Source of the DNA: Nitratiruptor sp. YY09-18
Lineage (GTDB): Bacteria > Campylobacterota > Campylobacteria > Campylobacterales > Nitratiruptoraceae
Length of the DNA stretch: 64,000 bases
Reading direction: 5' to 3'
Assembly: GCF_016593235.1 (NCBI RefSeq)
Contig: NZ_AP023065.1
Location: forward strand, 806,001 to 870,000
Of this stretch, positions 14,995 to 36,118 are shown piece by piece (positions within the stretch are counted from its first letter, which is position 1; each line of letters begins with the position of its first letter). Under the pieces are notes generated by a model, which made no database searches, was not told the origin of the DNA, and worked only from the letters and a program-made list of their open reading frames with translations. Made by a program: the position numbers and the translations under genes.

Positions 14995-16974
14995 ATGTTT
15001 AAAACTATCAAAGCAAAAATGATTCTCCTTGTGATTATTTTTATCACTTATGCAGGAATAATGGGGGTCAGAGATATAGCAAGAGATTATAAAGAGTTCC
15101 AAAACGCCCAAAATATCAAGTATGATGTACTCTTGAGCATAAAAATTTCAAATCTTGTGCATGAGCTGCAAAAAGAGAGAGGTAGAAGTGCAGGTTATCT
15201 TGGCAGTAGAGGTAAAAAGTTTGCTTATGAGATAAAATTGCAATATCAACTCACAGATAACCGCTTGCGAGAGCTCAAAGAGTATGTAGCCAAAAATCAA
15301 AATAGCAAAGGAAGTTTGCAGCAAAAAATTTTAAATATTCTCCAATCACTCCAAAAACTTGACAAAATCAGAAAAGATGTCCTAGCACTCCGTATTGAGA
15401 CCAAAAAAGCAATTGGATTTTATACACGCATAAATGGAGAGTTTTTACAAACAATTGGACTCATAGCAAAACAGTGTGACAATGCTCTCATAGCTAAAGA
15501 GCTGTTGGCATATGACTATTTTCTCCAAGCAAAAGAGCGTGCAGGGATCGAGAGAGCTGTTCTTTCGGCTACCTTTGCAAAAGATGGTTTTATGCAAGGA
15601 TTCTTTGTAAAATATATAAAGCTTATGACTGAGCAAAAAGCCTTTATCGATGCATTTGCAACTGCAGCACCTCAAAAGCTTCTCCAAATATATAAGAGCA
15701 ATTACAAAGGAAAAGCTATCGAAGAGGTTGCACGTATGGAAAGGGTTGCCATAGATCTTCATAAAAGTGGCGGATTTGGCATAGACCCTGCATACTGGTT
15801 TGATACTATTACAAAGAAGATAAATCTTTTAAAGGATATTGAGGATAAAATCGCTCATATCATTATCGAAGACAATCAGCATATTATTCAAGAGAACAAG
15901 CAAGATCTCCTTGTGACACTTTTCATTACTGCTCTAGGTCTTCTTCTCGTTCTAGTTATAAGCTATCTCATAATTGAGCGCTCAATCAATACCTATATCC
16001 AAACCATTAATACAAACCTTGAAGAGATTACCAAAACCAAAGATTTTTCAAGAGAGATACCTCTGAATTCGCAAGATGAGTTGAGCAAAATTGTCAAAAA
16101 TATCAATACGCTCATAACTTTTGCAAAAGAGATCATTGCACATGCAAAAGAGGGAGTAGAGAAAGATTCAAAAGTTGCCCAAGAGCTCTCACAAGCTGCC
16201 ATAGAGATAGGGAACAATATGGAGCAAGAAGCCTATTTCGTTTCTCAAAGTGCCAATAACGCACAAAAGGTCAAAGAGCCACTCCTTAACTCTGTAGCTA
16301 AACTAGATCATGCACAAACAGATATGCAGCAAGCAAACAATCTTTTGCAAATTTCAAAAAAAAGTATTTTAGAGCTTGTAAGAGAAGTTAAACGCAGTGC
16401 AAACAAAGAGGAGCATGTTGCAAAAGAGCTTAGCAGATTGGTCGAGCTTACTGATGAGACATCCAATGTATTGATACTCATTGAGGAGATAGCCAACCAG
16501 ACAAATCTTTTAGCACTCAATGCTGCTATTGAAGCAGCCCGTGCTGGAGAGCATGGCAAAGGTTTTGCGGTTGTGGCTGATGAAGTAAGAGGGCTTGCTG
16601 AAAAATCGAGAAACCATGTTGAAAAGATCAGTGGTACGATCACACAGCTACTCATGCAGATAGAAAGTATTAGTACAGAAATTGCAAACAATGCAAAAAA
16701 CATTATAAATCTTTCAAACAGAGTCAACAACATTGAAGCTGATGTTGACTCTGTATCGAGTGTCATGGATGAGACTGTCAAAAGTTCTTTAAGCGCATCA
16801 CAGCAGATCAAAAATATTCTTAAAAATATTGAAGATATAATTGTTGATATGGATAAAATCAATGAAATCTCTTCACTCAATGCAAGAAATGTGGAAGAGA
16901 TCGCAACCTCTACAGAGTATCTATACAAACAGATCGATATTTTACGTAGCAAACTGCAAGCATATAAGACATGA
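14995..16974 (+). CDS. methyl-accepting chemotaxis protein with NIT sensor domain
   Basis: A chemoreceptor of 659 residues. One transmembrane helix (about 8-25) starts the protein, the periplasmic part is all-helical with the NIT-domain hallmark [19 protein letters not shown] (about 54-72), a second helix lies at about 305-325, then a HAMP domain and a cytoplasmic signalling domain whose tip reads [23 protein letters not shown] domains are associated with sensing nitrate and nitrite, so nitrate taxis is a reasonable inference for an organism likely to respire nitrate; the ligand is not proven. No NWETF-type tether is present at the C-terminus (ends LQAYKT). It overlaps cheB by 4 bases. Confidence 0.93.
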
Positions 16975-31981: not shown

Positions 31982-32481
31982 CTACTCGCCTCCGTAAGGA
32001 AGCTTAGCTCTCTTCCACTCCAAAAATCCGCCATCTACGTTGTAGACTTCACGCATACCGTTTTTGGCTAGGAGATTTGCTGCATATTTACTTCTGCCAC
32101 CTATGCGGCAGATGACAAGAATCGGTTTGTTTCCAAGTTTGTGGCGAATCTTTTTGACATCTTCTAAGAAGTTTTTATTTTCAATTGGCGTAATTTCATA
32201 TACTTTGTGGGCATCAAGTGCTCTATTTTGCTCTTTTTTAGCAAAATTGATACGCAGTTTTATATCTTTTGGCTTATATGCATAAGAAAAAATTGGAACA
32301 GAAATGGCTTCAAGAGGATGTCCAGCATAGATATACTCGCCAGCTGTACGCACATCAATAACAATGGCACCTTTTTTTGCATATTATATGCTTCATTCAC
32401 ATCAACATCATCTTCATAGTAGGTCTGCTTTTGTGCAAAAATTGTCACAAGTATCAAAAGAAGGGCAAGCAACTTTTTCAA
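31982..32481 (-). pseudogene. periplasmic rhodanese-like gene split by a -1 frame change
   Basis: The first part (TTG at 32481) encodes a signal peptide MKKLLALLLILVTIFAQKQ and about 37 residues up to NMQKK. The reading frame then shifts by -1 and continues as GAIVIDVRTAGEYIYAG, SVPIF, and the rhodanese active-site loop VICRIGGRSKYAANLL (Cys as sulfur acceptor) to the stop at 31982. Joined, they give about 166 residues, the size of a single-domain exported rhodanese. Without the shift, translation continues about 37 codons in the wrong frame and stops at 32260. The junction falls exactly on A AAA AAG (32371-32377). It may be a real broken gene, programmed frameshifting, or a homopolymer sequence error. 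Confidence 0.8.
32371..32377 (-). other. slippery heptamer A AAA AAG at the rhodanese frame junction
   Basis: On the minus strand the zero frame reads ATG CAA AAA AAG GTG. The heptamer A AAA AAG is in the exact phase used by dnaX-type -1 frameshifting, and a -1 slip there yields AAA AAA GGT GCC, which restores the rhodanese frame. I see no strong internal Shine-Dalgarno upstream, so support is the heptamer and phase only. Confidence 0.6.
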
Positions 32482-32580
32482 TGTTACTTCTTGATGAATT
32501 TTTGAAAGGGTAGCTAAGTGATACTTAATTGTAGCTACATAATTGTAAATTGTTATAAATAAGTTACTCATTTCTAATGA

Positions 32581-32595
32581 TGATAATGATTATCA
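32581..32595. promoter_or_regulatory. Fur box
   Basis: TGATAATGATTATCA is a perfect 7-1-7 inverted repeat and identical to the published minimal Fur consensus TGATAATnATTATCA. It is 31 to 45 bases upstream of the -10 box of the porin gene, so bound Fur would cover the -35 region. This predicts repression of porin-feoA-feoB when iron is plentiful. Confidence 0.85.
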
Positions 32596-32625
32596 AGATT
32601 AATATTATTCTAAGAATAAATCGCT

Positions 32626-32631
32626 TATACT
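32626..32631 (+). promoter_or_regulatory. -10 box of the porin-feoA-feoB operon
   Basis: TATACT, 33 bases before the porin ATG and downstream of the Fur box. The rest of the 183-base gap from 32482 to 32664 is AT-rich and holds nothing else I recognise. Confidence 0.5.
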
Positions 32632-32664
32632 TTCAGCATAAAAATTTTTGAAAGGTAAAAAAAG

Positions 32665-33795
32665 ATGAAAAAGAGTCTCATAGTTGCTGGATTGCTACTT
32701 ACAATAGATACATTTTCATACGCACAGAGTTTGCGGTATAAACTTACGCAATTAGATCTTATAGATCATGCAAACTTTGAAACACGTCTTGGATACATTG
32801 CGCATAATTATTCTCAAGATCCTGATACCAAAGCTTTTGGCACTGCAGGCCATTTTCATTTGACTACAGTACAATGGAATGGATTGCAAGCAGATTTGGG
32901 TATATATGGTGCTACGAAATTAGGTAAAAATGAAGATCCAGACTTTTTTGGTAATAAGAGCAGTTTTGTATTTTTTAGTGAAGCAACTTTAGGCTATCGC
33001 TATCAAGATTTTTCAATTGAAGGTGGTCGATTTATTTTCGATTCTCCACATGCTGATAGTGATGATATACGTATGGTTCCAAACTTCTTCCAAGGTGTTA
33101 AAGCAGCATATTCCCAAAATGATACTACTTTGCAAGTTGGTTACCTTACAAAAATGGCTGGCTGGGAGAGTGGAGGTCGTATAGACAAATTCAAAAAATT
33201 TCATAGAGTCGCTCAGAGCGATAAGAGTATAGATGGAGTCTTTTTTGCTGGTTTTGACTTTGACTCACTCTCTTTGTGGCTCTATCATATAGATAACAGT
33301 GCAAATGTGATGTATATAGAAAAATATTTCTCTGTTGTTGGACTTGATTTAAGGTTGCAAGGAGATTTTGCAAAAGATTGTGAAGAGGCAGCTTTAGGCG
33401 AAATCGATGCAAAAACTTTGGGAATCTTGGTAGAAAAGAGTTATGAAAATCTCAACTTTTCATTTGCTTACAATAAAAACTATGGCAATAGTGGCGCTAT
33501 GATGAGTTTTGGTGGTGGACCATTTTTTACCTCTATGGAGGATCTCACGATCGATGCACTAAATGGCAGTGACCAAGAAGCATACACTTATGGTATAAGT
33601 TATGGAAAAGATAATTTTAGTCTTGGTATTATGCAAGGAAGATTTTATGGAGAAAATTTCCATAGTGATGAGATAGATCTCTATGCTGCTTACAGCTATA
33701 AAGATATATCATTTGAAGCGGTCTATGCTTCTATTGATGATCACTATAATCAAGACTACTCAATTGTTCGATTTTTTGCAAAATATGAGTTTTAG
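32665..33795 (+). CDS. outer-membrane beta-barrel porin, OprD-like
   Basis: A 376-residue protein with a signal peptide (MKKSLIVAGLLLTIDTFSYA, cleavage after Ala20 likely) and alternating amphipathic strands ending in a C-terminal Phe (FFAKYEF), the usual barrel-assembly signal. The segment GGRFIFDSPHADSDDIRMVPNFFQG (about 122-146) resembles the loop region of OprD-family porins common in this phylum. It is the first gene after a Fur box and lies 8 bases before feoA, so I infer a role in iron-limited growth, perhaps letting Fe2+ or a small chelate through the outer membrane. Substrate is unproven. Confidence 0.85.
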   Translation: MKKSLIVAGLLLTIDTFSYAQSLRYKLTQLDLIDHANFETRLGYIAHNYSQDPDTKAFGTAGHFHLTTVQWNGLQADLGIYGATKLGKNEDPDFFGNKSSFVFFSEATLGYRYQDFSIEGGRFIFDSPHADSDDIRMVPNFFQGVKAAYSQNDTTLQVGYLTKMAGWESGGRIDKFKKFHRVAQSDKSIDGVFFAGFDFDSLSLWLYHIDNSANVMYIEKYFSVVGLDLRLQGDFAKDCEEAALGEIDAKTLGILVEKSYENLNFSFAYNKNYGNSGAMMSFGGGPFFTSMEDLTIDALNGSDQEAYTYGISYGKDNFSLGIMQGRFYGENFHSDEIDLYAAYSYKDISFEAVYASIDDHYNQDYSIVRFFAKYEF

Positions 33796-33803
33796 GAGGA
33801 TGT

Positions 33804-34025
33804 ATGAAACTTACAGAGATGAAAATAGGTGATGAGGGAGTGATTGAGCGCATCAGTGCACCTGAGCCAATTAAGGGGAGACTTTTGGCTATGGGAATAG
33901 CTAAAAACAATAAGATCAAGCTTCTAGATCACACGCTCAAAAAGCAGACCTGGGAAGTGGATGTAGAGGGTACGAGAGTAGCTTTGAGAGATGAAGAAGC
34001 AAGAGGAATAGAGGTGAAAGTATGA
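33804..34025 (+). CDS. feoA: ferrous iron transport protein A
   Basis: A 73-residue SH3-like FeoA with the core GRLLAMGIAKNNKIKLLDHT (about 25-44) and VDVEGTRVALRDEEARGI. It is expected to bind or modulate FeoB at the membrane. An AGGAGG site lies before the ATG, and the stop overlaps the feoB start by 4 bases (ATGA). Confidence 0.95.
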   Translation: MKLTEMKIGDEGVIERISAPEPIKGRLLAMGIAKNNKIKLLDHTLKKQTWEVDVEGTRVALRDEEARGIEVKV

Positions 34026-36118
34026 AAAAGATCAAAGCTGTAATGGTCGGGCAGCCAAATGTTGGGAAATCATCCATTATCAATGCAATAAGTGGTGCAA
34101 GGCTGCATGTTGGGAACTTTGCAGGTGTTACGGTAGAGAAAAAAGAGGTAGATTTTACCTATCAAGATTATGCTATCAATATCGTGGATTTACCAGGGAT
34201 CTACTCTCTCAATGCCTATACTCCAGAAGAGCATGTTGCAAAGCGCTACCTTATCAATGAAGAGTATGATCTCATTGTCAATGTTGTTGATGCAAATGTT
34301 TTGCAAAGAAACCTCATCTTAACACTGCAACTACTTGATATGAATCCCAAGATGGTGCTAGCAATCAACATGATAGATGAGGTTGAAGAGAAGGGGGGAT
34401 CTATTGATGCAGTAAAGCTGAGTGAACTCATAGGTCGTCCTGTTGTCTTGGTAAGCGCAAAAGAGAAAAGAGGTATCGATGATTTGGTGAAAATGATTAT
34501 CGATGAATACAATACTCCTCACGAAAAGCGCAAAATCTACTATAATGAGCGTATCGAAGAGGAGATCGAAAAACTCTCAAAAATCTTGCTCAAATCTTCT
34601 CACTTCAACGATCCAGACCTTGCGAGATTTTATGTCATACGTCTTTTTGAAAATGATGAGGATATATACAAAATTATCCATGATCTTCCAATATTTTTGG
34701 AATTTCATGAAGCAATGGGCGAAAGCATGCGACGTCTGCAGCTTGAATTTGATGAAGAGAGTGTGGCTGATATCTTAGCAAATGAGCGCAACTCTATAGC
34801 CAAATCGCTTGTGATGCAGGTTGTAAAATCCCCAAGAAAAGAGTCTTTGACTGATAAGATAGACAAAATTCTTATCCACCCCATTTTTGGACTTCCCATT
34901 TTTCTCTTTTTCATGTGGTTGCTCTTTCAGCTCACATTTGAGATAGGTTCACTTCCTGTAGACTATCTTGATGCAACTTTTAGCAATTTTGCTCTGTGGG
35001 TAAAAGGTATCTTGCCACCTGGTGATATAAATGCAGTAATAACTGATGGAATTATTCCAGCTGTTGGATCAGTCATTATGTTTTTGCCAAATATCTTAAT
35101 CCTCTTTTTGGGGATTAATCTCTTGGAACAGACCGGCTATATGGCGCGTGCTGCATTTTTGCTCGATGGGTTTTTGAAAAAGTTTGGACTGCAAGGTAAA
35201 GCGTTTATTCCACTTGTGAGTGGCTTTGGATGTACCGTGCCAGCTTATATGGCTGCACGCACACTCAAAAACCCAAAAGATCGCATTATCACGATGCTTG
35301 TGCTTGGATTTATGAGCTGTAGTGCAAGACTTCCCGTCTATGTGTTGTTGATCTCGGCATTTTTCCCAACGCACAATGCTGGAAATATTCTCTTTATCAT
35401 CTATATTTCAGGCGCAATTTTGGGTCTTATTGTCGCAAAGATTTTGCGTATGGTACTTTTCAAAGGTGAGCCAGAGCCATTTGTCATGGAGATGCCGCCT
35501 TACAGATTCCCTTCACTCAAAGCCTTGGGGATGGAGCTATGGATCAAAGCAAAACTCTTTTTGAAAAAGGCTGGTACGTTCATCGCAGGAACTGCTATGA
35601 TTATATGGTTTTTAAGCAGCTATCCTGTGCACAATAAGCTTGTGCAAAGCTATGAACAGAAGATAGAATTGGCAAAAAGTGATGAGCAAAAGATCCAACT
35701 CCAAAATGAGTTAGCTGCTAAAAATCTCGAATATAGTTATCTTGGACAATTCGGCAAAGCAATCGAACCAATATTCGCACCACTCGGATTTGATTGGCGG
35801 ATGAGTGTAGCGACAATTAGTGGACTGGCAGCCAAAGAGGTGGTGGTATCTACTCTTGCTACTTTGTATGCAGTGGGTGAGGCGGATGAGAAGAGTTCGA
35901 CGCTTATCCAGCGCCTCAGAGAAAATGTGGATTTCAAAGCAGCGATTGCTCTCATTGTCATTATCATGATCTATAGTCCATGTGTAGCAGCAATGAGTAC
36001 TTTTTGGGCAGAAGTACCACAATGGGCATGGAGAACATTTTACCTCATATATCCAAATGTTTTGGCCTGGATTGCAGCCTTTAGTGTCTATAATATTCTT
36101 GCTTTTATGGGATACTAA
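34022..36118 (+). CDS. feoB: ferrous iron transport protein B
   Basis: GTPase-driven Fe2+ uptake protein of the inner membrane, 698 residues. The N-terminal G domain has G1 GQPNVGKS (10-17), G3 DLPG (about 58-61) and G4 NMID, followed by the GDI helical domain. The membrane part holds two Gate regions, with the conserved cysteine segments PLVSGFGCTVPAYMAARTL and IYSPCVAAMSTF. The C-terminal Cys extension of E. coli FeoB is absent. It is in one operon with feoA and the porin under a Fur box. Confidence 0.97.
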   Translation: MKKIKAVMVGQPNVGKSSIINAISGARLHVGNFAGVTVEKKEVDFTYQDYAINIVDLPGIYSLNAYTPEEHVAKRYLINEEYDLIVNVVDANVLQRNLILTLQLLDMNPKMVLAINMIDEVEEKGGSIDAVKLSELIGRPVVLVSAKEKRGIDDLVKMIIDEYNTPHEKRKIYYNERIEEEIEKLSKILLKSSHFNDPDLARFYVIRLFENDEDIYKIIHDLPIFLEFHEAMGESMRRLQLEFDEESVADILANERNSIAKSLVMQVVKSPRKESLTDKIDKILIHPIFGLPIFLFFMWLLFQLTFEIGSLPVDYLDATFSNFALWVKGILPPGDINAVITDGIIPAVGSVIMFLPNILILFLGINLLEQTGYMARAAFLLDGFLKKFGLQGKAFIPLVSGFGCTVPAYMAARTLKNPKDRIITMLVLGFMSCSARLPVYVLLISAFFPTHNAGNILFIIYISGAILGLIVAKILRMVLFKGEPEPFVMEMPPYRFPSLKALGMELWIKAKLFLKKAGTFIAGTAMIIWFLSSYPVHNKLVQSYEQKIELAKSDEQKIQLQNELAAKNLEYSYLGQFGKAIEPIFAPLGFDWRMSVATISGLAAKEVVVSTLATLYAVGEADEKSSTLIQRLRENVDFKAAIALIVIIMIYSPCVAAMSTFWAEVPQWAWRTFYLIYPNVLAWIAAFSVYNILAFMGY

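Follow-up and report, generated by a model that had tools for sequence, protein, structure and literature searches.

Ferrous iron is usually assumed to cross the outer membrane through any porin. In the genome of Nitratiruptor sp. YY09-18, a 64,000-nucleotide stretch of DNA (hereafter the window) contains genes for an OprD-family porin, FeoA and FeoB behind an exact Fur box. The retention of such porin genes next to feoAB and behind a Fur box in Nitratiruptor-related vent bacteria suggests an outer-membrane channel made specifically for iron instead of the generic pores usually assumed. We assign a probability of roughly 0.74 to the reading that the porin is a Fur-repressed, dedicated outer-membrane channel for Fe2+ entry paired with FeoAB. 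This reading builds on the gene order, the Fur box, the fold, the conservation and the clade-specific residues, all of which are established at the level of sequence.

The features of the operon are listed in Table 1. In the window ORFs, porin and feoA are separated by 8 bases and feoA and feoB overlap by 4 bases (ATGA), confirming the tight junctions described in an earlier note on this DNA. The gene identities proposed there were borne out as well: the porin matched the Pfam family OprD (PF03573) with E=2.2e-9 and 37.3 bits against a cut-off of 25, over residues 110-305 only, while FeoA (E=3.5e-18) and FeoB_N (E=1.1e-60) were recognised by Pfam and FeoB by the NCBIfam model TIGR00437 (E=1e-184). 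By these assignments both Feo components, the SH3-like protein FeoA and the GTPase-permease FeoB, are encoded. OprD was the sole Pfam family found for the window porin, with no OprB (PF04966) match at E<=1, and a search of NCBIfam with the same protein gave no match.

Table 1. Features of the porin-feoAB operon, in window positions
Feature	Position	Strand	Details
Fur box TGATAATGATTATCA / TGATAATnATTATCA	32581-32595	.	exact 7-1-7 palindrome, 84 bp 5' of the porin start codon
Possible sigma-70-like promoter (ATGATA, 17 nt, TATTAT)	32580-32608	+	shares bases with the Fur box; a weak match, no better than chance
Porin, OprD-family 18-strand outer-membrane channel	32665-33795	+	376 aa including signal peptide
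feoA	33804-34025	+	73 aa
feoB	34022-36118	+	698 aa

A divergent rhodanese-like gene (31982-32475, minus strand) is interrupted by a shift of frame close to an A7/T7 run (about 32365-32375). Its counterpart at the same locus of another genome of the genus, G013 (L096:5252-5791), forms a single unbroken frame. Sequencing error, decay and phase variation are alternative explanations for the split.

The exact 7-1-7 Fur box named in the earlier note was found upstream of the porin, and its pattern, TGATAATNATTATCA, has exactly two occurrences across the 1.76 Mb of the genome. The -10 box named with it fared less well: the promoter-like match is plausible, but such matches are no commoner than in shuffled sequences. 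The promoter region carries a Fur box and the genome encodes three Fur-family proteins, and with these both features of Fur regulon membership are present. Fur would accordingly be predicted to bind the box, and the three genes would share an iron-dependent transcript.

In order to judge how specific this box is, we counted Fur boxes with <=2 mismatches within 150 bp 5' of the start codon and derived the expectation from dinucleotide shuffles. Among porins linked to feoAB, 33/37 carried a box against 0.2 expected in shuffles, and 27/37 still did so with <=1 mismatch. By the same count, boxes were found at 20/32 porins of the clade that are unlinked to feoAB, and porins of this kind include some beside CbiM; certain other porins of the clade lack both feoAB and a Fur box. 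None of the 22 other OprD genes of the same genomes, which are mainly MOMP-like, carried one (<=2 mismatches, 150 bp), which means that OprD genes do not bear the box in general. The 7-1-7 box was also absent within 150 bp of all nine gammaproteobacterial homologues. On a maximum-likelihood porin tree, the porins with Fur boxes are clustered, their label requiring 8 changes compared to 22 in shuffles, and the MOMP-like paralogues group together on the opposite side of the tree.

We scored linkage in 60 relatives by matching porin and FeoB positions and requiring the porin directly 5' of feoB, on the same strand and within about 1 kb. The porin lies directly 5' of feoAB in 28/60 relatives from at least nine families, so the gene order that the earlier note had proposed to look for in other Campylobacterota does recur. 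Within the window's own family, 18/21 relatives are linked, which speaks against the earlier note's refuting case of a porin found mostly without feoAB. Contig ends cut the locus in two of the three other relatives (G010 and G021), and in the third, G013, feoAB occupies the corresponding locus next to the rhodanese gene with the porin absent there; this genome has a porin, preceded by a Fur box of its own, on a different contig.

Further cases of a porin before feoAB were found in Sulfurovum-like genomes, and about 20 Sulfurovum-type loci show the reversed order feoB-feoA-porin. In the reversed loci, a Fur box precedes feoB in 16 of the 17 that could be tested. That the partners were retained through such rearrangement is strong evidence of a functional link. 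Because linkage and Fur box are both seen again in nine families or more and the partners stay together despite the altered order, an iron role of the porin is well supported by comparison. The clade is not universal in the phylum: in a sample of 160 genomes it was missing from most and occurred mainly in Nitratiruptor-like, Hydrogenimonas-like and Sulfurovum-like families.

Single loci depart from the common arrangement. In G024 (L100:2700-4300), about 1.5 kb separates two near-consensus Fur boxes from the porin-feoAB operon, and this DNA looks like a transposase insertion. The feoAB-linked porin is seemingly broken into shorter frames in L151 (G027) and L164 (G038).

The second exact Fur box of the genome, at C1:1525430, lies about 66 bp 5' of a DUF2325 gene and heads an operon of DUF2325, a second porin, ferritin, imelysin, cytochrome b, a multiheme cytochrome and FTR1. 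The second porin is 31% identical to the window porin and has an additional 2-mismatch Fur box directly 5' of it. Each of the genome's two perfect Fur boxes therefore heads an operon in which an OprD channel is combined with an iron permease of the inner membrane. An operon of the composition DUF2325-OprD-ferritin-imelysin-cytochrome-FTR1 is also present on the 27 kb plasmid pNitYY0814_PLS of Nitratiruptor sp. YY08-14 (NZ_AP023062.1, L252), with ferritin, imelysin and cytochrome 95-98% and the porin 86% identical to the chromosomal copy in the window's genome; it is apparently a mobile iron-uptake cassette.

The surrounding iron island (C1:1510000-1529500, L081) holds a second feoAB, flavodoxin, FTR1, the multiheme cytochrome, imelysin, ferritin, the second OprD porin, DUF2325, ExbB/ExbD/TonB, a Fur-family gene and a TonB-dependent receptor, together with several Fur-like boxes. 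Two DUF2325 genes are found in it (L081:1274-1555 and 15060-15365), one of them directly 3' of the only exact Fur box in the genome besides that of the window.

An AlphaFold2 model of the window porin shows 18 strands with a mean pLDDT of 89.1. Its best PDB matches are all Occ/OprD proteins (OccAB4, OpdK and C. jejuni MOMP; TM 0.7-0.8) at identities of 11-17%, and a family profile searched against the PDB likewise found Occ/OprD channels, with OpdP and OpdK best. On this model, the porin is a distant 18-strand barrel of the OprD/Occ family.

Two acidic and methionine-bearing motifs are conserved, SPHADSDDIRMVPN at residues 127-140 and FGGGPFFTSMEDLTID at residues 282-297. In the feoAB-linked channels they read TPHADSDDIRM and GGGPFFTSMEDxTID and are not found in the MOMP-like paralogues; these loop motifs are richer in Asp, Glu and Met than the MOMP-type relatives. 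The first motif presumably belongs to loop L3, the loop that constricts the pore, and we take the second to lie in another large loop. Relative to the MOMP-like paralogues, the clade has specific acidic positions at 131, 168, 219, 292, 293 and 338 and methionines at 164 and 291. Median net charge is -27 in the feoAB-linked channels compared to -10 in the MOMP-like paralogues. The acidic motifs are common to the whole clade, gammaproteobacterial members included, with the proviso that the unlinked and gammaproteobacterial sets were partly gathered by motif, which inflates the conservation. These residues may line a cation-selective constriction; the porin would then be cation-selective, and the gene context makes Fe2+ its probable substrate.

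The neighbours of the clade include several kinds of metal permease. CbiM is found near the porin in six loci from two phyla (L159, L242, L244, L229, L230, L232): three in Campylobacterota, adjoining or near, and three in Thiodiazotropha-type symbionts, about 1.8-2.4 kb upstream. One gammaproteobacterial homologue (L221) lies directly 3' of a P19-type Fe2+ transport gene (PF10634), before which a weak Fur-like 19-mer match (15/19) was found. The CbiM neighbours argue against strict Fe2+ specificity and, together with the clade-wide acidic lumen motifs, favour a broad channel for divalent metals or cations that would serve Fe2+, Co2+ or Mn2+ according to the paired permease, Fe2+ merely being the commonest use. 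Against this, neighbours and upstream boxes are overwhelmingly of iron type, and no RNA element of the cobalamin riboswitch kind was found at the CbiM-linked or island loci. We regard such a broad channel as a serious but less probable possibility; it overlaps with the dedicated Fe2+ channel and does not exclude it. Similarly tentative is a wider proposal, that an OprD sub-clade of Campylobacterota and some Gammaproteobacteria may comprise dedicated channels for naked transition-metal ions, paired in modular fashion with FeoAB, FTR1/imelysin, P19 and CbiM and owing their selectivity to a conserved Asp/Glu/Met constriction.

The known relatives of the fold point elsewhere: every homologue with a solved structure is an Occ channel, and these channels are described as carrying small organic acids and related small organic solutes. 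The porin could accordingly admit iron-citrate, another Fe chelate or an organic acid, and be co-regulated with feoAB since the ligand delivers iron. Of the basic ladder and eyelet that would serve carboxylates, R136, which aligns with the eyelet arginine of OpdK, is kept in 91% of members, in line with this idea, but it is replaced by methionine in one sub-clade. The extra conserved acidic positions and the strongly negative net charge would be unfavourable to anions, and no organic-acid permease was seen among the neighbourhoods examined. We consider an organic ligand unlikely.

Slightly less likely still is an ordinary general-diffusion porin placed under Fur, by which low iron would merely increase overall permeability. 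E. coli OmpC/OmpF do suffice as a route for Fe2+ (PMC7315122). However, the same genomes hold other, MOMP-like OprD porins without Fur boxes, the link persists across nine or more families and despite a change of gene order, and the clade-specific loop motifs are conserved. Other OprD porins of Sulfurovum have been suggested to take up sulfur (PMC10045233); since iron genes are the neighbours in the present case, we weighted this option low.

For the dedicated Fe2+ channel, the following sequence of events can be proposed. At low iron, Fur would leave the box, and porin, FeoA and FeoB would be made together; Fe2+, perhaps along with other divalent metals of its kind, would reach the periplasm by diffusion through the porin, from where FeoB would move Fe2+ into the cytoplasm. 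The dedicated outer-membrane route suggested in the earlier note thus gains support from linkage and Fur box, with Fe2+ as the likely substrate. Counting against it are the feoAB of G013 without an adjacent porin, the clade members that lack both feoAB and a Fur box, and the retention of the eyelet arginine in most members. The clade kept with FeoAB provides defined candidates for outer-membrane Fe2+ entry, and the paralogues without the motifs can serve as controls. If true, the reading would bear on how iron is supplied in vent and sulfidic ecosystems, whose iron is mainly Fe2+, and would widen the role of OprD channels beyond mainly organic solutes.

The concept of a Fur-controlled porin-feoAB operon is not new, as such operons with OprB-type porins were predicted for Geobacter in 2004 (Rodionov; PMC545781) and, as feoPABC, for Acidithiobacillus in 2008 (PMC2631029). 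Our literature search found no paper joining the OprD family, feoB, ferrous iron and the outer membrane. In Acidithiobacillus, a Fur box, the dedicated porin gene feoP and feoABC follow one another, and an outer-membrane Fe2+ route was predicted (PMC2631029). FeoP is an OprB-family protein of acidophiles, whereas the window porin is an OprD-family protein of vent Campylobacterota; we propose that it works like FeoP without being a member of that group, given the missing OprB match. Geobacter sulfurreducens similarly has a Fur box and a porin before feoAB (porin-feoA-feoA-feoB2 and the psp porins) with a predicted Fe2+ role (PMC545781), but its porins are OprB (PF04966) and PF07396-like, occur in a single species and follow a different Fur box.

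Occ/OprD channels (OpdK, OccAB4, OprD) and C. jejuni MOMP share the 18-strand OprD fold and the L3 motif D-x-R-x-x-P with the window porin; they are not linked to Fur boxes, and the MOMP-like paralogues lack the acidic/Met motifs. Francisella FupA is likewise an outer-membrane protein and is needed for Fe2+ uptake, but it belongs to the unrelated FslE/FupA family, its expression is unchanged on iron limitation, and it is not in a feoAB operon as described (PMC4981453). In E. coli, a porin and FeoB act in one pathway, as shown for OmpC (PMC7315122) and as appears probable here, although OmpC/OmpF are general porins not encoded with feoAB. What is new in the present case is the unrelated OprD family, how deeply it occurs in Campylobacterota and its repeated association with several types of metal permease; the OprD version is apparently a convergent variant, conserved much more widely than the published cases.
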